DNA of 64,000 nt from Oscillatoriales cyanobacterium SM2_2_1. GTDB lineage: Bacteria; Cyanobacteriota; Cyanobacteriia; Pseudanabaenales; Pseudanabaenaceae. The notes under the pieces were generated by a model. It was not told where the DNA came from, searched no databases, and saw nothing but the letters and a program-made list of their open reading frames with translations. The position numbers were made by a program, and so were the translations under genes. Of this stretch, positions 3,832 through 40,196 are shown one piece after another. The stretch's first letter is position 1; each line of letters opens with the position of its first letter. The stretch is from positions 25,461 through 89,460 of the forward strand of contig JAAUUH010000001.1 in assembly GCA_012031145.1 (NCBI GenBank), in the 5' to 3' direction.

Positions 3832-5202
3832 ATGAACGGTGACGACACGATCGCCGCCATTGCCACTGCGATCGCCCCCCAGCAGGGTAGCATTGGCATC
3901 GTCCGCCTTTCGGGGCCCAAGTCCTTGGCGATCGCCCAGCAAATCTTCCACCCCGCCCACAATGGCCCCTGGGAAAGCCATCGTCTGTCCTACGGCCATG
4001 CCTACGACCCCGGCACGGGTACCCTCCTAGATGAATGCCTAGCCGTTTGGATGCAGGCTCCCCGCTCCTACACCCGCCAAGATGTGGTGGAATTTCAGGG
4101 GCATGGCGGCATGATGGTGGTGCAAACCCTGCTGCACGCCTGCCTGTCCTTGGGGGCGCGACTGGCCGAACCCGGTGAATTCACCCTTCGGGCGTTTCTC
4201 AATGGTCGGATTGACCTGACTCAAGCCGAAGGCATCCAAGACCTTGTGGGAGCCCATTCTCCCCAAGCCGCCCAGATGGCCCTGTCCGCTGTGCGGGGCA
4301 AGTTAGCCCAACCCCTGCGCCACCTGCGCCACACCTGTGTGAATCTCCTCGCCGAAATTGAGGCCCGCCTCGATTTTGAAGAAGACCTGCCGCCCCTAGA
4401 TCTTGCCGATCTCCAAGCGCAGCTCACTGCCGCCCTGCAGCAAACCCACCACTGGCTGTCCACCGCCGATCGGGGGGCGCTGCTGCGCTCTGGGCTGAAT
4501 GTGGCCATTGTCGGTCGTCCCAACGTGGGTAAATCCAGCCTCCTCAATGCCTGGAGTCGCTGTGATCGCGCGATCGTCACCGACTTACCCGGCACCACCC
4601 GCGATGTCATAGATTCCCATCTTGTGGTTCACGGCATCCCGATCCACGTTCTCGATACCGCTGGCATTCGCGACACTGAGGATCGGGTGGAGCAAATCGG
4701 CGTCCAGCGATCGCGCCAAACCGCCAGCCAAGCCGACCTCGTTCTGCTCGTCATCGATGCCCAGGCCGGATGGACTCCGGGCGATCGCCAGATCTACGAC
4801 CAAATTCGGGCCCGGCCCCTATTGATTGTGGTCAATAAGACTGACCTCAGCCCCCACATTCCTGCCAACCTCCCCACCGACATTTTAGGCACCATCGGCA
4901 CCGCCGCCGCCCAAAACCAAGGCATTGAGGAGCTTGAATCCGCCATTCTCCACCATGCCCAGCGGGGTATCCTGCATACCAGCGACCTGGATATCGCCAT
5001 CAACCAACGGCAAAAGGCTTGTCTCATTGAGGTCGAGCAATCCCTAGAGCGCGTCCTAGGGGCGATCGCCCTAGCCCTACCCCTTGATTTTTGGACCATT
5101 GACCTCCGCGCTGCTATCAGCGCCCTCGGCACAATTACGGGCGAAGAACTCACCGAATCCATCCTCGACCAAATCTTCAGCCGCTTTTGCATTGGCAAGT
5201 GA
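3832..5202 (+). CDS. mnmE: tRNA uridine-5-carboxymethylaminomethyl modification GTPase MnmE
   Basis: 456 aa; [31 protein letters not shown]-terminal CIGK. Confidence 0.98.
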
Positions 5203-28180: not shown

Positions 28181-28618
28181 TCAGTCTGATATAGCAAATA
28201 AGATCCTAAGTTTAAGAGATTCACTGAAATCATCTTCGTAAATCAATGATTCAATAATGTATGCTAGCAGTTGTTTGCTAATTTTCCCCTCTGCTACCCA
28301 AACTGCAATATTCTCCATTTCTAGTAAAATTTTTTTTACTGAATAATCATATCCATTCAATTCCAAAAAATAGCTGCCTAATGCAATACTAGAACGCTTA
28401 TTACCATCTACAAAAGCATGGAATTTAATTATAGAAAGTACCAAGTGAGTTAATTTATCTTCTATTTTCGGATAGTAGTTATCATTTTGAATATGTTCAA
28501 GGGGACTTTCTAATAATCCTAGGTTATTGATTCCAGCTAGACCACCTGAATTCTCGATAATCCAATCATGAAACTCAACTGCATGGGCAATATCAAAATA
28601 TAAAATTATTTCATCCAT
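28181..28618 (-). CDS. Doc/Fic (death-on-curing) family toxin
   Basis: 145 aa; LSIIKFHAFVDGNKRSSIALGSYFLELNGYDY, Fic/Doc motif HxFxDGNKR. Confidence 0.88.
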   Translation of the reverse strand: MDEIILYFDIAHAVEFHDWIIENSGGLAGINNLGLLESPLEHIQNDNYYPKIEDKLTHLVLSIIKFHAFVDGNKRSSIALGSYFLELNGYDYSVKKILLEMENIAVWVAEGKISKQLLAYIIESLIYEDDFSESLKLRILFAISD

Positions 28619-28620
28619 TC

Positions 28621-29634
28621 CTATCTATCTTTGAGTCTCTGAGAAACTGCCAGTGCTTCGGGATCGGATAGCTGCTCTTGTAGCGATCTACTAGCTTCAC
28701 CTAAAAATTTCTCAAAATCAGATTCTGGAATAGTTTGGATATAGGATATTAGTTTTTGATGCAGGGCATCTCTAAAGCTTAGATCTCGACTTGCCATTTT
28801 AGTACGAGCATCTTCGATAATAGGCTTGAGATAAGAATTATTTTCTGCAAGTTCGACCAAGCGATCTAATTCCGAAGGCTGAAGTTTACGCCCTGCTTGC
28901 TCTGACTTAACTTTCATTTCTTCAGCAAGACCATTTTCTATACTAGCGATTGCCTTGAGAACTTCAGCGTACAAAGTATCGCGAACTTTGTCTTTTTTCT
29001 CCAATTTTAGGATTTGTCTGTATTCTTGAGCATTTTCTCGAAATACCAGTTGGTAAATTTTATTTGTGTAAAAGCCATACTTAGCTTTTCCCATCTCCAA
29101 ATAATCATCTAAGGCTTTAGTAAAAACTTGTCTATAGCTAAACTCTCGATAAGCAGAAGGCAAATAATTGCAGTCCCGCTGATTAATATATCTAGTGTGC
29201 CCCCCCGATCGCTCCGCGACTACTTCAATCACGATATCAAGGATGCGAGAACGGATCAAACGGGCACGATCGCTTTCTGTGAGCAGCATTGCAATATTGA
29301 GGGCTGCTCGAAAAGTAAATACACCTAAGACAGTTATTTTGGTACCCTCATTGATGAGGATACCACCTGTAGTGTTTAGAAAATCCTTGAGGGCTTGCCC
29401 TTTCAGAACTCTATAACCATTATTTTTCAGTTCTTCGCCATGATTTGCTACATATCTTTCTATGGTGACATTATTAATATTAAAAAGCTCTGCTAACTGT
29501 TGCTTGGTAAAAACAACGGTGTCTTGATAGGGAATCCCCCCTAAGCCTAAATGCTCTTCAATTTTTTCTATGGCATAGCGATTATTGAGAATGTTTTAGC
29601 GATCAAGTTTAGAGTTGGGAAGGTCATTGGTCAC
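28621..29634 (-). CDS. Helix-turn-helix RhuM-like protein, partner of the Doc gene; in-frame TAA at 29596-29598 interrupts the N-terminus
   Basis: Manual translation V-TNDLPNSKLDR*NILNNRYAIEKIEEHLGLGGIPYQDTVVFTKQQLAELFNINNVTIERYVANHGEELKNNGYRVLKGQALKDFLNTTGGILINEGTKITVLGVFTFRAALNIA-MLLTESDRARLIRSRILD..., continuous with ORF 28621..29289. Confidence 0.75.
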
Positions 29635-32187: not shown

Positions 32188-32801
32188 ATGGATGAAGGCG
32201 TTATCACCTTTGCGATCGCCCAGTGGCAACAGCAGTCCCTTGGGGAATTTGTGGGGTACCCCATCCTCGAGCATTGGCGACAAACCCTACGACGGCACCA
32301 TCTGATCGGTCTTGATGCCCAGGGCATCAGCTATGGCAACGTCAGTCTCCGTCATCCCGCGGGGGCTTTGTGATTACCAGCAGCCAACAATCCCACCACC
32401 CGATGCTCACTCCCGCCCAATACACCTGGGTTACCGGCTACCACCTAGAAGCCCATACCCTTACTTGCATCGGCGAACAGCCTCCCAGCAGCGAATCGGG
32501 CACCCACCACGCCCTCTACCAAATGCATCCCGCCATCGGTGCCGTCTTCCACATCCACAACATCGCACTCTGGCATGACCTGATCGATCGCCACCGTTGG
32601 CACACTAGCCCAACCATTCCCTACGGCACTGCTGCCATGGCTGTCGAAGTGGCCCAAATCTATGGGGCGATCGCCGACCCCTTCTCCCGATCCGTGTTAG
32701 CCATGGGTGGGCATCAAGATGGCGTGCTTTCCTTTGGTCGCACCTGTGATGATGCGGGAAGTTCCCTTTTGGCCCTGTGGAACCAAGCCTATTCCTCGTA
32801 G
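32188..32801 (+). CDS. Class II aldolase/adducin-family protein, apparent frameshift in G-run near 32360
   Basis: LIGLDAQGISYGNVSLRHPAG joins GFVITSSQQSHHPMLTPAQYTWVTGYHLE...HHALYQMHPAIGAVFHIHN...PYGTAAMAVEVAQ. Confidence 0.82.
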
Positions 32802-34989
32802 TCCTCTTCGTCCTCCTCATCATCATCAATGTCTAACACCGTTGCCGCCCGCTGGGAGAAACGGACTTTTTGCGCTCCATTGGCGATCGCCCCAATCAGG
32901 TTAAGGCTTTGGAGCACGGCCATGGCCTGCTGGAACTCACTGCGGGTGACATGGCTGATTCGCCCCACCAGAATCACTCCACGACAAACTGAAGCAGCTT
33001 CTAGGGCATCGACGGTTTCTAAAACCGGTGGCGTGTCAAGGATAATTAGATCGTAGGCATGCTCCAAATGGGCAATCAGCTTCCGTAGTGCCGGCGAACT
33101 CAGTAATCGTGCTGGATCCTCAGGCACGGGCCCCGCCGTCAGCACATCAATGCCACCCTCGGTCTTGCGGATCACATCATCAACATGGCTTCCTAGGGGA
33201 TCCATGAGCAGCGTCGATAGACCCTGCTTATTAGGCAGTCGCAACAGGCGGTGTAAGCTCGGGGTGGTCAAATCGCCATCCACCAGCAGCACCCGTTGGT
33301 GCATCCGCACGGCGCTACTGGCCAATCCCAAAGAAATAGTGGACTTGCCTTCCCCCCGCAGGGCAGAGGTGATCGTGACGGAGCGGAGCAACTCCCGTGG
33401 CTCCAAAAGTCGAATATTTTTGTAAATTAAATCCATGGCCGCCCGGAACGGTGTCCATTGCAAAACCTCACTGGTTCCCCGACGCGCCAGGGCACTGCTG
33501 CTTTGCCCCTTCAGGAACGGCGGCAAGAACTTACCAGAGCTGGAAGCAGACAGAGCAGCCGACTGGGGGGTAATCCCTAGCAGGGTAAGAGTAGATTGCT
33601 GCTCTAGCTCGGCAGTGGTGCGTACGGTGTCGTCCTGGAGATCTCGCAAAAAGGCCAGACCACAGCCAATAAAGGCACCGGCAATCACACCCAGCAACAG
33701 ATTGCGTCGGTGGCTAGGCTCCTCTGGGGTGCCTTCCCGTGGTTGCTCAATTACTTGCCAGTCAAAGCCGCCCCTGGCCTGCTCGACGCTGAGTTGCTGC
33801 CGCAGTTTCAGTAGTTCTTCGAGGGCAGATTGCTCCACTTGCAGGCGGGGTTTGAGGGATTCAAATTCGCTCAACAACTTGGGCAGGCGCTTGATTTCAG
33901 TTCTGAGTTCCTGCTCTTGGCGGTTTAGGACTTGCTGGCGGACTTGGAGTTGGCGCAGGGTGGCCGCAGCCTCAATTAACTGACTGGCTAGCCCTTGATC
34001 AAGGCCAGAGGTGGCAGCTTCCGCGCCTTGGGTGAGGCGTTGACGCTCGCGGCCTTGGGCGGTTTCTAGCTGTCTGAGGCGTTCACGCAGGGCACGAACG
34101 GTGGGTGAAGCAGTAGTAAAGCGGGTTTCCTCCTGGATCAGTTGAACTTTAGCCTTTTGAATTTCAGCTTCAAGGGCTTGGAAGGTACTGGACTGGGCCA
34201 GACGCGTGGCTTGGGCCGCTTGCACGGGCGATCGCCCAAACTTTGCTGCAAGGTGTCGTAGCGGGACTGTACCTGCTGGAGTTCCAAGGATGTGGCCCGC
34301 CGCTGTTGTTCAATACTGGATAGGGCCGCTGTCACCTCAGTCATCCGCTGACTGGCATCAAAGAGGTTGTGCTTGCGGCGAAAGGCTTCGAGGTCGTTGG
34401 TCGCTTCGGCAATTTTTTTCCGGGCTTTAGGGATTTGCTGGTCAATAAACTCCAGTCCACTGGTCAGGCGCTTTTCCTGCTGCTCCCGGTTATATTCCAA
34501 ATACACCTGCTCAAAGGCCTGAAGCACGTCCCGCGTTTTGGTGGGGCTATCGCTGGTATATTCCACGGCAATAATCTTGGTTGCCGTCTGCCCGCGGGAA
34601 ATCTGCTCCACCCTCAGGGATTGCCCCAATTCCCTGCCAATGCCGGGGTAGCGGGGGGCCAGGATCTGTCGCGCCCGCTCGAACATTTGGGAAGAGCGCA
34701 TCAGGGTCAGTTGGGTGGCATAGTCGATCTGAACGTTGGTCTCGGCCGTGATTGGGCTTTCGTCCTTACTGCGGGAACGATAGTTGGGTTCCACCAACAA
34801 TTGCATTTGACTGCGATAGGAAGATTTAGAAAGTAGATTCACCACCAAGGCCCCGGCGATGCCCAGGCCTACACAGCCAATCACCCACCATTTGCGCCGC
34901 CCAAGCACCGCAAACAGCTTGCCGTAGCCCATATCGGTTTCGGTGGGAGTCGAGGTTGTGCCGGAGAGTAGGGGTTGGCTAGAAGTCAT
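32789..34989 (-). CDS. Polysaccharide-biosynthesis Wzz/tyrosine autokinase (Wzc/CpsD type), apparent 1-nt deletion near 34225-34235
   Basis: RSVTITSALRGEGKSTISLGLASS Walker A, VLLVDGDLTTPSLHRLL, YDLIILDTPPVLETVDA; N-terminal Wzz half in ORF 34138..35082; C-terminal acidic/Tyr tail DDDEEDEEDYEE. Confidence 0.92.
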
Positions 34990-35036
34990 AGCTAGGGGTT
35001 CCTCATCAGGGGTAACAAGTGGATAACACGTCAAAA

Positions 35037-36173
35037 TTAGGTAATGAATTCTGATGTCAACGGGGCAGTCCGAGTGGTACACACCTCCGCAATCAGCCGA
35101 TCAAGCTTTTGGAAGAACACCGGACGGGAAAAGTTCTCGAGGGCGTGCTGGCGAATCGCTGCGGGGTGCCACGATCGCCCCTCAAAGGCACGCACTGCCT
35201 CAATAATTGCCGCAGGTGTTTGCTGCCTAAAAAACAACCCCGTCTCCCCCTCCCGCTGGGTATCCAGGACACCGCCACAGCCATAGCTGAGCACCGGGGT
35301 GCCGCTGACATTGGCCTCGATGGGCACCAAGCCATAGTCTTCCACGGCAGCGACGATCACCGCCTTGGCGTTGGCCATCCACTGGGTGCGGGCCGTGTCG
35401 CTCACCTCGCCTAGAAACTCGATCTGGGGCGATCGCACGAGGGACTCCAACCGCCGCCGTTCTGGGCCATCCCCCATAATCTTGAGGGGCAAGCCTAAGG
35501 CATTAAAAGCCTCAATGACACAGTCCACCCGCTTGTAGCCCAGCAAACGGGCTGCCACCAAATAAAACTCCTGCTTTTGCTCACCATAGGTAAATTTAGT
35601 TTCGTCAATGGGGTAATGGAGCACGACCGCTGGCTTGTGGTAGACCGACTCAATGCGTTGTTTCACCGTTGTCGAGTTAGCCACATAGAGGTCAGGCCCC
35701 TGGGCAATGGCATAGTCCTGCTGACGCATCAGGGCAAAGATTGGCTCCAGCAGGGGGCGAATCCGCCGGTAGCGGGGAAATTCCCGCAGATAGGTGGTGG
35801 TGTCCCACAAAAAGCGGGTGATATTGTGACAAAAACAGATATGTTTGGCATCAGGTCGCCGCCGGACTGCCTTGGCAAAACTGGTTGTGCTGGTGAGCAG
35901 CAAGTCATAGGCCGTCAAATCGAGGGACTGGAACGCCCCGTAGTAGAGCGGGGCCAACAGGCGAAAGTAACGGGTAGCTCCCGGTAGATGCTGGAGGTAG
36001 GTAGTCTGCACCGGGCGATCGCCGAGGTCAATCGTTCGTGCCGGGTCGTAGAGGGAGGTCAGAACATCCGCCTCGGGGAGATGATGACAAAAAAGCTCAA
36101 AAACCCGCTCGGCACCACCCCGTTGGGTGAGGTAGTCGTGGATGAGGGCAATATTTATCGGCTTTTGGGTCAT
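35037..36173 (-). CDS. Glycosyltransferase family 4
   Basis: IALIHDYLTQRGGAERVFELFCHHLPEADVLTSLYD...EVSDTARTQWMANAKAVIVAAVEDYGLVPIEANVSGTPVLSYG. Confidence 0.93.
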   Translation of the reverse strand: MTQKPINIALIHDYLTQRGGAERVFELFCHHLPEADVLTSLYDPARTIDLGDRPVQTTYLQHLPGATRYFRLLAPLYYGAFQSLDLTAYDLLLTSTTSFAKAVRRRPDAKHICFCHNITRFLWDTTTYLREFPRYRRIRPLLEPIFALMRQQDYAIAQGPDLYVANSTTVKQRIESVYHKPAVVLHYPIDETKFTYGEQKQEFYLVAARLLGYKRVDCVIEAFNALGLPLKIMGDGPERRRLESLVRSPQIEFLGEVSDTARTQWMANAKAVIVAAVEDYGLVPIEANVSGTPVLSYGCGGVLDTQREGETGLFFRQQTPAAIIEAVRAFEGRSWHPAAIRQHALENFSRPVFFQKLDRLIAEVCTTRTAPLTSEFIT

Positions 36174-36476
36174 ATCGTGATCATTACGGCAATTGAAGGG
36201 GAGTGGTAGGGGCTTAATTTTTTTTCTACATTTCCTAAATGTTGCCCTTTGTAGCTATTGGTCAATTTTTATGGCGCTGGAGCTAACCCTAGCAAACGCT
36301 GACTTTTTAGCTATTTTTGGCGTCATTGGCGGATGATCACGCTTTTTATCCCTAGTGTACGCGCCCCCTTCCGCGACTTTTGAAATTGGGGGGAATCGAA
36401 AAGTTATATTTATTGGAGGATTTTGGATAACTAGGTTATTTTTGGCCCATACTTTGGTTACACCCTTCTCAGCAAA

Positions 36477-39400
36477 ATGACCGCCGAAGAGCAACTCGAA
36501 GCCCTAGAGAGCCACTTTAGTAACCATACCTTGACCACCGTGGAGCGCTCAGTATTTCTTGGGGTTTGGCGAGGCTTGTCCTATGCCGAAATCGCTAAGG
36601 AAACCGGGTATAACGCTGGCTACATCAAGCTGGTGAGTCATAAACTCTGGCATAAAATTTCGGAGCTGGTGGGGGAAAAGGTCACAAAATCCAATCTTCC
36701 GGCGGCGGTGCGTCACTTTTTGCTGCAGCAGGGGGCAACATCACCGCCTGTAGTAGAGTCGATGCCCCAATTAACTCCCCAGAATCAAGATTGGGGGGAG
36801 GTGGCGGATGTATCGGTTTTTTATGGTCGAGAAAGGGAACTAGAGACCCTCGTCCAGTGGATTGAGGGCGATCGCTGCAGGCTGGTGGCGCTCCATGGCA
36901 TGGGGGGGCTGGGCAAAACGTCCCTTTCCGTCAAAATGACCCAGAGTCTCCAGTCCCATTTCGAGTTTCTGTCCTGGCGCTCGTTCAATAATGTCAAGCC
37001 GCCGGCCGAAATTTTAGCCCAGTGGATTCACTTTGTCTCGAAGCAGCAGGAGACAGAGTTTGATGACGATGTGGAGACCTTGCTCTCGCGGCTGTTGGAA
37101 TATTTGCGCCGACACCGGTGTCTGCTAGTGGCGGATAATTTTGAGTCCGTGCTTCAGGGTGGAGAACATGTCGGCACCTACAACAAGGATTACGAGCAGT
37201 ATGGGCTGATTCTTAAACGTTTGGGGGAAGTGTCCCACCGTAGTTGTCTGGTGGTCACCACTCGAGAACTGCCGGCCGAAATTGCCAACCTAGAGGGCGA
37301 TCGCCTACCAGTGAGGGTGCTACGGCTGGCAGGGTTAGAGGAGGCGGCTGCGGAGCAAATGCTGGCAGCCAAGGGGTTGGTGGGTGACCAACGGGATATT
37401 CACCGACTGGTGGAATGGTATCGGGGTAATCCCTTGGCACTCAAAATTGCGGCGACGTCGATTAAGGAAATTTTTGCTGATAGCATCAATCGCTTTTTAG
37501 AGCACCGCACCATTAGTTTTAGTGGCGTCAGCAAACTATTGGAGCAGCAGTTTAAGCGCCTCTCGGCGATTGAAAAGCAGGTGATGTACTGGTTGGCGAT
37601 CAACCGCGAACCCTGCTCAGAGCAAGAATTACAGTCGGATATTGTGCCCCAAGTGGAGCTTGCTGATCTCATGCACGCCCTCAGCTCCCTGAAACGGCGA
37701 TCGCTCCTAGAACAGAGTGGGCGCGGCTTCACCCAACAGCCCGTGGTGATGGAGTACGTCTCGACGCTGTTGGTGGAGCAGTTTTACTATGAAATCTCCC
37801 AGGATCAGCCCATTGGCGTGCTTTCAGCGATCCAGGCACGGTTGCAAAAGCAATTATTTTATTTGCGCCACTACGCCCTAGTAAAGGCCTCGGCCAAGGA
37901 TTACATTCGCCAGACTCAGGAGCGGATACTGCTGGAACCTTTGATCTCGAAGCTGCTGACCAAGCTGGAGAGCAAAACGGTGATCGCCGAGCAAATCAAT
38001 GACCTTTTATTGGAACTGCGGCGGCGTGATCGCCGTGGCGGGCAGGAGGGGGGCAGCGACTATGCCGCGGGGAATATGCTTAACCTGCTGGGGTGGCTGA
38101 GGGCCGATCTGCGGGGAGCAGACTTTTCCACCATGCCGATCCGCCAGGCCTATTTGGCTGAGGTGCCCCTGCACAATGTTTCGTTCCGAAATTCCAAATT
38201 CCAAAAAACCGTCTTTGCCGAAGTGATTGGCGGCGTGCTTTGCACAGCCTTTAGCCCCGATGGGAACCACTTGGCCGTGGGAGACTCCAAGGGGGAAATT
38301 CATTTGTGGCGAGTGCGGGACGGACGCCCTTTGCTGACCCTGAAGGGCCATGGCGGCTGGGTGTCAACCCTGGCTTTTAGTCCCGACAGTCAGCTTTTGG
38401 TCAGTGGCAGCTATGACCAGACTCTGAAGCTTTGGGATGTATCTACTGGTTCCTGCCAGCGGACACTGCGGGGCTTTATTGGTCAGGTGACAGCAGTAGT
38501 CTATAGCCCCGACGGACAATTTTTGGCCAGCGGCCATGCCGATCGCAGTGTGCGTCTGTGGCATGCCCAATCCCAAGCCCCCATGGCTGTGCTCCAAGGG
38601 CACACGGATATTGTCAGCAGTGTCGCCATCAATTCCCGGGGCACCCTTTTGGCCAGTGGCAGTGATGATCAAACCATCCGGATCTGGGATTTGAGCACCC
38701 TGACCTGTGTGCGGGTGCTAACGGGCCACGATGATCTGGTGTGGTCGGTAGACTTTAATCACAACGGCCATGTTTTGGCCAGCGGCAGCGAGGATCAGAC
38801 CATCCGGCTATGGAATGTGGAAACGGGGGTATGTCTTAGGGTGTTGGCGGGCCATCGCCATACGGTGTTTGCGGTGCGCTTTAGTGGACAGCTTTTGGCC
38901 AGTGCCAGCGGCGATCGCACCATTCGCCTGTGGCATCCTGTGTCCACAGAATGTCTCAAAACCCTCTATGGGCACCAGCATTGGGTTCGCTCCATTGCTT
39001 TCCATCCCAAGGGCGAGTTGCTAGCCAGTTGCAGTGGCGATGCCCTTGTCAAAATGTGGGAAGTGCAATCGGGTCAGTGTGTGCGCACGTTTCAGGGGCA
39101 TTTTGGGCTTTCCAACGTTTGGGCCGAATCGGCTTTTAGCGATCCCCAATCCAGCAATGACCATCTCCTGAGCCTATGGGAAGTCAAAAATGGGCAGCAA
39201 TTTCGGATTTTGCAGGGCTACAGCAATGCGGTGTGGAGTGTGTCCATCCATCCCCGGGGCGACCTGATTGCCAGCGGGGGCGATGATTCAATTTTGCGGC
39301 TCTGGCATCTCCATAGCGGGAAGTGCACACAGCGGTTGATGGGTCACGGTGGGCGAATTTGGCAGGTGGCTTTTTCGCCCGATGGGCAGCGGATCGCCAG

Positions 39401-40196
39401 TTGCAGTGAGGATGGAACTGTGCGGCTCTGGCAGTCTCGCACGGGGGAGTCCCTAGCGGTTATTTCGATTCACCCCGACCTGCCTCGCTCCCTGAGCTTT
39501 AGCCGAGATGGTACTCTACTGGCCGTCGGCGATACGGATCGGGCCATTCGGCTGTGGAACGTAAGTACCCAAACCATCCAATGCGTCCTTGAGGGGCATC
39601 ACGCCGGGATTCAATCGCTTACATTCACGGAGGGCGATCGCCATTTAATCAGTGGCAGTCGGGACAAAACCGTTACCATCTGGGACTTATCCACAGGAAC
39701 CGTGCTCCATCGCGTTACGGAAGGTCTTGATACCATCCACGGGGTGGCCTATTGCCCAGTGCATCACCTCTTGGCGATCGCCAGTAGTGCCCTGCACCTG
39801 TGGCACCTACCGACCCAAACCCTAATCGCCACACTCACGGGCCACGATGGCACTGTGCTTTCAGTAGCCATGACCGACAATGGCACCCTCATGGTCAGTG
39901 GTGGCAGCGATCGCACCCTCAGAATTTGGGAACTGCCCTCGGGAACCCTTTTGCGCACTATTCCGGCCCACAAGGAAGCCATCTACGCGATCGCCATGGC
40001 TGCAGGCAACCAACTATTTGCTAGCGGCAGCCGTGATGAAACGATTAAACTCTGGAGTTTTCCCGACGACGGGCAACAGCGCATCCTCCGGGAGCCGCGC
40101 CTCTACGAAGGACTTGACCTCAGCCACGCCACAGGGCTGACCCTGGCCCAAAAAAACAAGCTAGAAATGCTGGGGGCACGGATTACTCCAGACTAG
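36477..40196 (+). CDS. HTH - NB-ARC (STAND NTPase) - WD40-repeat protein
   Basis: 1239 aa; N-terminal LTTVERSVFLGVWRGLSYAEIAKETGYNAGYIKLVSHKLWHKISE; FYGRERELETLVQW...LHGMGGLGKTSLSVKM; at least 14 WD repeats (GSDDQTIRIWD, GSEDQTIRLWN etc.). Confidence 0.95.
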   Translation: MTAEEQLEALESHFSNHTLTTVERSVFLGVWRGLSYAEIAKETGYNAGYIKLVSHKLWHKISELVGEKVTKSNLPAAVRHFLLQQGATSPPVVESMPQLTPQNQDWGEVADVSVFYGRERELETLVQWIEGDRCRLVALHGMGGLGKTSLSVKMTQSLQSHFEFLSWRSFNNVKPPAEILAQWIHFVSKQQETEFDDDVETLLSRLLEYLRRHRCLLVADNFESVLQGGEHVGTYNKDYEQYGLILKRLGEVSHRSCLVVTTRELPAEIANLEGDRLPVRVLRLAGLEEAAAEQMLAAKGLVGDQRDIHRLVEWYRGNPLALKIAATSIKEIFADSINRFLEHRTISFSGVSKLLEQQFKRLSAIEKQVMYWLAINREPCSEQELQSDIVPQVELADLMHALSSLKRRSLLEQSGRGFTQQPVVMEYVSTLLVEQFYYEISQDQPIGVLSAIQARLQKQLFYLRHYALVKASAKDYIRQTQERILLEPLISKLLTKLESKTVIAEQINDLLLELRRRDRRGGQEGGSDYAAGNMLNLLGWLRADLRGADFSTMPIRQAYLAEVPLHNVSFRNSKFQKTVFAEVIGGVLCTAFSPDGNHLAVGDSKGEIHLWRVRDGRPLLTLKGHGGWVSTLAFSPDSQLLVSGSYDQTLKLWDVSTGSCQRTLRGFIGQVTAVVYSPDGQFLASGHADRSVRLWHAQSQAPMAVLQGHTDIVSSVAINSRGTLLASGSDDQTIRIWDLSTLTCVRVLTGHDDLVWSVDFNHNGHVLASGSEDQTIRLWNVETGVCLRVLAGHRHTVFAVRFSGQLLASASGDRTIRLWHPVSTECLKTLYGHQHWVRSIAFHPKGELLASCSGDALVKMWEVQSGQCVRTFQGHFGLSNVWAESAFSDPQSSNDHLLSLWEVKNGQQFRILQGYSNAVWSVSIHPRGDLIASGGDDSILRLWHLHSGKCTQRLMGHGGRIWQVAFSPDGQRIASCSEDGTVRLWQSRTGESLAVISIHPDLPRSLSFSRDGTLLAVGDTDRAIRLWNVSTQTIQCVLEGHHAGIQSLTFTEGDRHLISGSRDKTVTIWDLSTGTVLHRVTEGLDTIHGVAYCPVHHLLAIASSALHLWHLPTQTLIATLTGHDGTVLSVAMTDNGTLMVSGGSDRTLRIWELPSGTLLRTIPAHKEAIYAIAMAAGNQLFASGSRDETIKLWSFPDDGQQRILREPRLYEGLDLSHATGLTLAQKNKLEMLGARITPD

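Follow-up and report, generated by a model that had tools for sequence, protein, structure and literature searches.

A cyanobacterial STAND protein with two WD40 propellers and a putative role in the control of exopolysaccharide and surface-protein genes

Many cyanobacterial proteins combine an HTH, an NB-ARC NTPase and WD40 repeats, and they are usually read, by analogy with Apaf-1, as factors of defence or cell death. One such protein is encoded beside exopolysaccharide genes in the window, i.e. the whole 64,000-nucleotide stretch of contig JAAUUH010000001.1 of Oscillatoriales cyanobacterium SM2_2_1 that was analysed, and the locus raises the question of whether the protein serves conflict or the control of its neighbours. 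The gene comprises the following features:

36477..40196, + strand: STAND gene ORF, ATG start, 1239 aa; HTH – NB-ARC – double WD40 propeller
36477..36737, + strand: N-terminal HTH, residues 1-87; five helices, AlphaFold2 pLDDT 75-90
36804..37466, + strand: NB-ARC NTPase; GMGGLGKT P-loop, CLLVADNFE Walker B, GNPLAL
38094..38222, + strand: pentapeptide-like segment, residues 540-582, following the helical arm and preceding propeller 1
38235..39095, + strand: propeller 1, seven blades, residues 587-873; 28 strands in the AlphaFold2 model
39096..39224, + strand: conserved inter-propeller insert ("degenerate blade"), residues 874-916 (43 residues); pLDDT < 50
39231..40088, + strand: propeller 2, seven blades, residues 919-1204; 28 strands in the AlphaFold2 model
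40089..40193, + strand: conserved C-terminal tail (EGLDLSHATGLTLAQKNKLEMLGA)

The product is a member of the STAND / NB-ARC (AP-ATPase) class, possessing the P-loop GMGGLGKT and matching the NB-ARC profile PF00931 at residues 119-328 (46 bits, cut-off 23.5). The NTPase named in the original prediction is thereby borne out, and the STAND architecture and the N-terminal HTH are both supported; the C-terminal superstructure repeats of the class are present as two WD40 propellers. The best Foldseek match of the NB-ARC region is 6mfv, a STAND protein (E 9e-6), and plant NLRs are also found (E < 1e-3), matches that are supportive only, the model being of low confidence. No NCBIfam model scores above its cut-off against the protein, no effector domain was found in it, no PADLOC defence model covers it (HEAT-ARM_XIII alone cross-matches, via the WD repeats), and a scan of viral contigs with the family alignment returned no relative. 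Full-length orthologs of equal length show 87% identity in UBA999 and 54-56% in the sister genus. The dN/dS of the whole gene between the window and UBA999 is 0.065, with synonymous change near saturation, and 0.02 in the pentapeptide-like segment, whose Pfam match (Pentapeptide_4, E 0.025) lies below the cut-off.

The WD40 profile matches the protein in 13 stretches (E 1.2e-131). Divided at the WD tryptophan, the repeat region yields 15 units (W611 to W1193, spacing 40-42), the eighth of which (residues 862-901) is degenerate, the usual first two strands being missing. The predicted layout of seven blades, a degenerate unit and seven further blades holds, because the AlphaFold2 model of residues 535-1239 (mean pLDDT 77; the AlphaFold runs drew on alignments of only 4 and 10 rows, built from the window and its related loci) contains 28 strands at 587-873 and 28 at 919-1204, joined by a low-confidence segment of 43 residues; that is, exactly two closed seven-bladed propellers, separated by a unit that is not a blade. 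In a Foldseek search the propellers matched 2ymu first, followed by double propellers, among them AIP1 and Apaf-1, the best query TM-score among the propeller matches listed being that of Apaf-1 (3sfz, 0.53). Two details of the original description have to be corrected. The last WD unit had been placed at the C-terminus, but propeller 2 stops short of it, since a conserved tail of ca. 35 residues (REPRLYEGLDLSHATGLTLAQKNKLEMLGA), common to the orthologs and most paralogs, comes after the last blade. The middle unit had been taken for a damaged or linker blade, and damage is not what its conservation indicates: it is kept in 20 of the 20 full-length orthologs aligned, following in the sister genus the pattern RTFQGHTGRSW, a variable stretch and then SNEHLLNLWEVTSGQQFRILQGYTNAV, while its hairpin half is identical in the window and UBA999 (dN/dS ca. 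0.01, synonymous sites near saturation). The unit is absent from paralogs, and related full-length proteins of ca. 40% identity have a plain 14 WD units where these are countable (L037, L038, L041, L044, L045). Conservation in orthologs, purifying selection and the 14 units of the relatives together indicate that what separates the two propellers is a lineage-specific insert under selection.

The N-terminal part is a DNA-binding-type domain fused to the NOD, with an HTH-like helical fold. Its nearest Pfam match is Sigma70_r4_2 (sigma-70 region 4; E 0.002, below the cut-off), which is weakly matched by 9 of 12 family members; each sigma match is weak, and DNA binding is a prediction. A comparison of the HTH profile with PDB sequences gave matches at chance level only. 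The recognition helix, at about residues 47-65 (GYIKLVSHKLWH), is kept in the window and in most of the sister-genus orthologs shown, and varies in paralogs. As to the VMAP-type HTH originally proposed, no MoxR, vWA or VMAP gene is present among the Pfam-scanned genes of the window and the STAND protein has no VMAP-C domain; kinship with the VMAP / vWA-MoxR ternary system, marked by adjacent MoxR AAA+ and vWA genes and by that domain, is thus not supported. The same HTH type is found on short proteins of the window genome (G000) without WD repeats (L014, L015). A protein of 546 aa from this genome (L002), with an NB-ARC domain but no WD repeats, matches residues 29-511, and HTH-NB-ARC homologs in frames of 525-532 aa, likewise devoid of WD repeats, occur in several related genomes of Calothrix and relatives (L048-L053).

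Upstream of the STAND gene, a divergent operon begins:

36174..36476, no strand: divergent intergenic region between the STAND gene and the glycosyltransferase operon, common to both
35037..36173, - strand: GT4 glycosyltransferase gene that opens the divergent exopolysaccharide operon (Pfam; synteny)
32789..35082, - strand: Wzz/Wzc-type chain-length tyrosine autokinase, two overlapping ORFs (478 + 314 aa)

The Wzc-type autokinase of UBA999 is encoded in a single 753-aa frame, and the split in the window reflects a frameshift mutation or else an error of assembly. In 12 of the 14 neighbourhoods of orthologs, the STAND gene is divergently paired with the GT4 and Wzc genes; the gene downstream of the STAND gene differs between the window and the sister genus. 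The sister-genus cluster extends on one side to a HepC-like sugar transferase (NF045514, 220 bits, above the cut-off of 140) and on the other to a second GT4, which is followed in G014 by an exported protein with a PVPVP-type tail. Of the genes that lie from the HepC-like one to the second GT4 in the neighbourhoods read, the STAND gene alone encodes a recognised DNA-binding domain. The GT4-Wzc-HepC-like order also exists in two other families in which the STAND gene is missing, so the operon is probably older than the pairing. The STAND gene itself is vertically inherited, usually single-copy, and conserved in position beside exopolysaccharide genes in two genera. At 28181-29289 of the window (- strand), some 7 kb away from the STAND gene, with polysaccharide genes in between, lie a Fic/Doc gene (TIGR01550, 52 bits, cut-off 38.65) and its partner of 222 aa; both match the PADLOC candidate pair PDC-M59A/B and are likely a toxin-antitoxin or candidate defence pair.

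Comparison of intergenic regions in the sister genus revealed a direct repeat with an 11-bp period, GTTATAYAAAAGTTAT; it lies 31-62 nt 5' of the start codon of the STAND gene in the 12 neighbourhoods read from that genus. In a genome scan of the sister genus it also turned up ahead of the HepC-like gene and of genes elsewhere that encode exported proteins. Most of these proteins begin like a signal peptide and end in a tail of the PVPVP-G-hydrophobic-basic type. By sequence, these tails resemble exosortase signals; scores against the curated PEP-CTERM models were below the cut-off. In one exported family with the PVPVP tail, whose orthologs share 39-45% identity with the query, the repeat lies ca. 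110-130 nt upstream in 4 out of 4 cases. All of the 35 distinct sites read are intergenic at a coding fraction of 0.77, many of them being orthologous and not all independent; relative to the target genes the repeat is mostly in reverse orientation, and it lies 108-457 nt ahead of their start. Both repeat sites persist in G018, where the STAND gene and the operon are on different contigs. In G031 (L124, 9153-12897) the STAND ortholog is frameshifted (ORFs of 498 and 823 aa) and the GT4 and Wzc genes are absent beside it, both repeats and the HepC-like gene being present. Tandem arrays of three or more 11-bp units, instead of the usual two, occur in L077 at 4343-4370 (GTTATATAAAA) and in G029:C31:19476-19513 (GTTATGCAAAA), suggesting stepwise oligomer binding. 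In the sister genus, repeats that may serve as operators stand ahead of the STAND gene itself and of its putative targets; none were found in the window's genus: the full repeat is not enriched in the window genome and UBA999, where only a half-site precedes the STAND gene:

36399..36410, + strand: AAAAGTTATATT half-site, also present in UBA999 and in the sister-genus repeats; alone not significant in the window

A search for 11-bp repeats in the regions ahead of paralogs that carry this HTH gave nothing clear, apart from weak lag-11 matches at L040 and L044. The J-Box of SigJ, GGGaAtacT (PMC6495340), an extended -10 element, was considered as the identity of the repeat and rejected, as GTTATAYAAAAGTTAT does not have the GGG trio.

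In the sister genus the repeat and the gene occur together. Allowing at most one mismatch, 138 sites are present in 20 genomes with the STAND gene versus 32 for the reversed-pattern control (about fourfold), and 3 versus 3 in the three sister-genus genomes without it; ca. 98 sites are left after subtraction of two per genome, those of the STAND and HepC-like genes. The exact repeat is found neither in these three genomes nor in the searched genomes outside the sister genus, and enrichment fades into background once the pattern is loosened to two mismatches. The gene-less genomes fall in two separate places of the protein tree, a placement forced by the starred branches, so the STAND gene was lost at least twice, and the repeats with it.

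This pattern in related genomes suggests that the STAND protein switches on genes for the extracellular coat, and not a role in defence or suicide. The reading we lean towards, as somewhat the likelier account, is that the STAND protein is a transcription regulator of the MalT/AfsR type with an Apaf-1-like double propeller as its sensor and an exopolysaccharide/surface-protein regulon bound through the repeat. Held more tentatively, and at a little below even confidence, is the full proposal: an Apaf-1-shaped DNA-binding transcription factor that reads the state of the extracellular matrix and controls exopolysaccharide genes and surface proteins with a sorting tail via the tandem 11-bp repeats, the insert being part of the sensor. 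In the preferred reading, the two propellers would keep the NB-ARC switch closed and sense a ligand, probably tied to the state of the envelope, the polysaccharide or the filament; its binding would trigger the ADP-to-ATP switch and the assembly of protomers, whose HTH domains would be aligned on the tandem repeats (GTTATAYAAAA, one helical turn apart). The predicted target DNA of the HTH, or of the full-length protein, is GTTATAYAAAAGTTATAT. The genes turned on would be those for the HepC-like initiating transferase and for exported proteins with the PVPVP-type sorting tail, and possibly also the GT4-Wzc operon, while the repeat at the STAND gene's own start would provide autoregulation. Binding of the repeat by the STAND protein, the sign of regulation, the ligand and the same working in the window's own genus are what we infer, the mechanism being carried over to that genus because of orthology, the common operon partner and the conserved recognition helix. 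Against this reading count the missing enrichment of the repeat in the window genome and UBA999, the fading of the enrichment at two mismatches, and the presence of the same HTH type, whose DNA binding is a prediction, on other proteins.

The original prediction had assigned the protein a sensor or conflict role. In its elaborated form, an Apaf-1/NLR-like STAND would detect a phage or damage signal with its propellers, and the HTH would act as an adaptor recruiting an effector encoded elsewhere. Antiviral sensing is known for bacterial STANDs that carry repeats at the C-terminus (PMC10907252), the propellers are nearest to Apaf-1 by TM-score among the matches listed, the NB domain is near plant NLRs, and the N-terminal domain recurs on other proteins of the genome (L014, L015), as adaptor domains do. 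We nevertheless consider this role unlikely, for the gene is no defence-island gene but a vertical, usually single-copy neighbour of an exopolysaccharide operon with a fixed place in two genera, the protein has neither an effector domain nor a PADLOC defence model of its own, and the operator evidence, which a conflict role leaves unexplained, favours transcription control.

The repeat might instead be owned by another regulator, e.g. of the OmpR/PhoB type, acting over the STAND, HepC-like and exported-protein genes, the STAND protein being a target and a scaffold or sensor in exopolysaccharide assembly. OmpR/PhoB-type regulators also bind 11-bp repeats, one repeat stands at the STAND gene's own start, and a regulator lost together with the cluster could fit, because the three genomes without the STAND gene lack the HepC-like gene too; the exported-protein families are absent from these genomes as well, so a comparison of target orthologs is uninformative there. 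A general regulator, however, should leave sites after the loss, and none above control are seen; moreover, in the neighbourhoods read, the STAND gene's part of the cluster (HepC-like gene to second GT4) encodes no further recognised DNA-binding domain, and this alternative is likewise regarded as improbable. Very improbable is that the STAND gene is a passenger of unrelated function, linked to the operon by chance: WD40/NB-ARC candidates number several to dozens in nearly every cyanobacterial genome searched, but synteny persists at ca. 55% protein identity even though the downstream side has changed, and the putative operator is shared.

The preferred reading, that of a transcription regulator, has its parallels in MalT and AfsR. 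In MalT of E. coli the DNA-binding domain is C-terminal and the sensor TPR-like, whereas here the HTH is N-terminal and the sensor a WD40 one. MalT, in which the STAND switch is likewise used for transcription, multimerises upon inducer binding and then binds cooperatively to repeated MalT boxes (PMC4381067). AfsR, a large SARP of Streptomyces and a STAND activator, has a similar order of an N-terminal DNA-binding domain, NOD and C-terminal repeats, and its operator, which resembles the putative one here, consists of two 11-bp direct repeats bound by a side-by-side dimer (PMC10936776). It differs in having an OmpR-type wHTH, BTA and TPRs, in contrast to the sigma-r4-like HTH (predicted to bind DNA) and the two WD40 propellers described here. 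Apaf-1 shares the NB-ARC, the helical arm and the two WD40 propellers, which in Apaf-1 have 7 + 8 blades; the present protein has an HTH in place of CARD, 7 + 7 blades with a conserved insert, and no caspase link. The highly repetitive WD-40 double propeller 2ymu and AIP1 (1nr0) also have tandem seven-bladed propellers, but neither an NTPase nor an HTH. Other cyanobacterial HTH-NB-ARC-WD40 proteins, such as that of a Scytonema NIES-4073 plasmid (L045), agree in domain order and C-terminal tail at ca. 40% identity, but possess 14 WD units and no insert between the propellers.

Several PEP-CTERM genes of Nostoc hormogonia are SigJ-responsive yet devoid of a J-Box, which implies a further factor in between (PMC12188702); a regulator of the present STAND kind is, speculatively, a candidate for it. 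For one group of the HTH-NB-ARC-WD40 proteins there is now a concrete putative operator and a list of targets among exopolysaccharide and surface-protein genes. If the reading is right, a job could be assigned to this cyanobacterial class, together with a candidate regulator of surface proteins with sorting tails, and an apoptosome-like architecture would be able to serve plain transcription control as a gene switch for the bacterial matrix.
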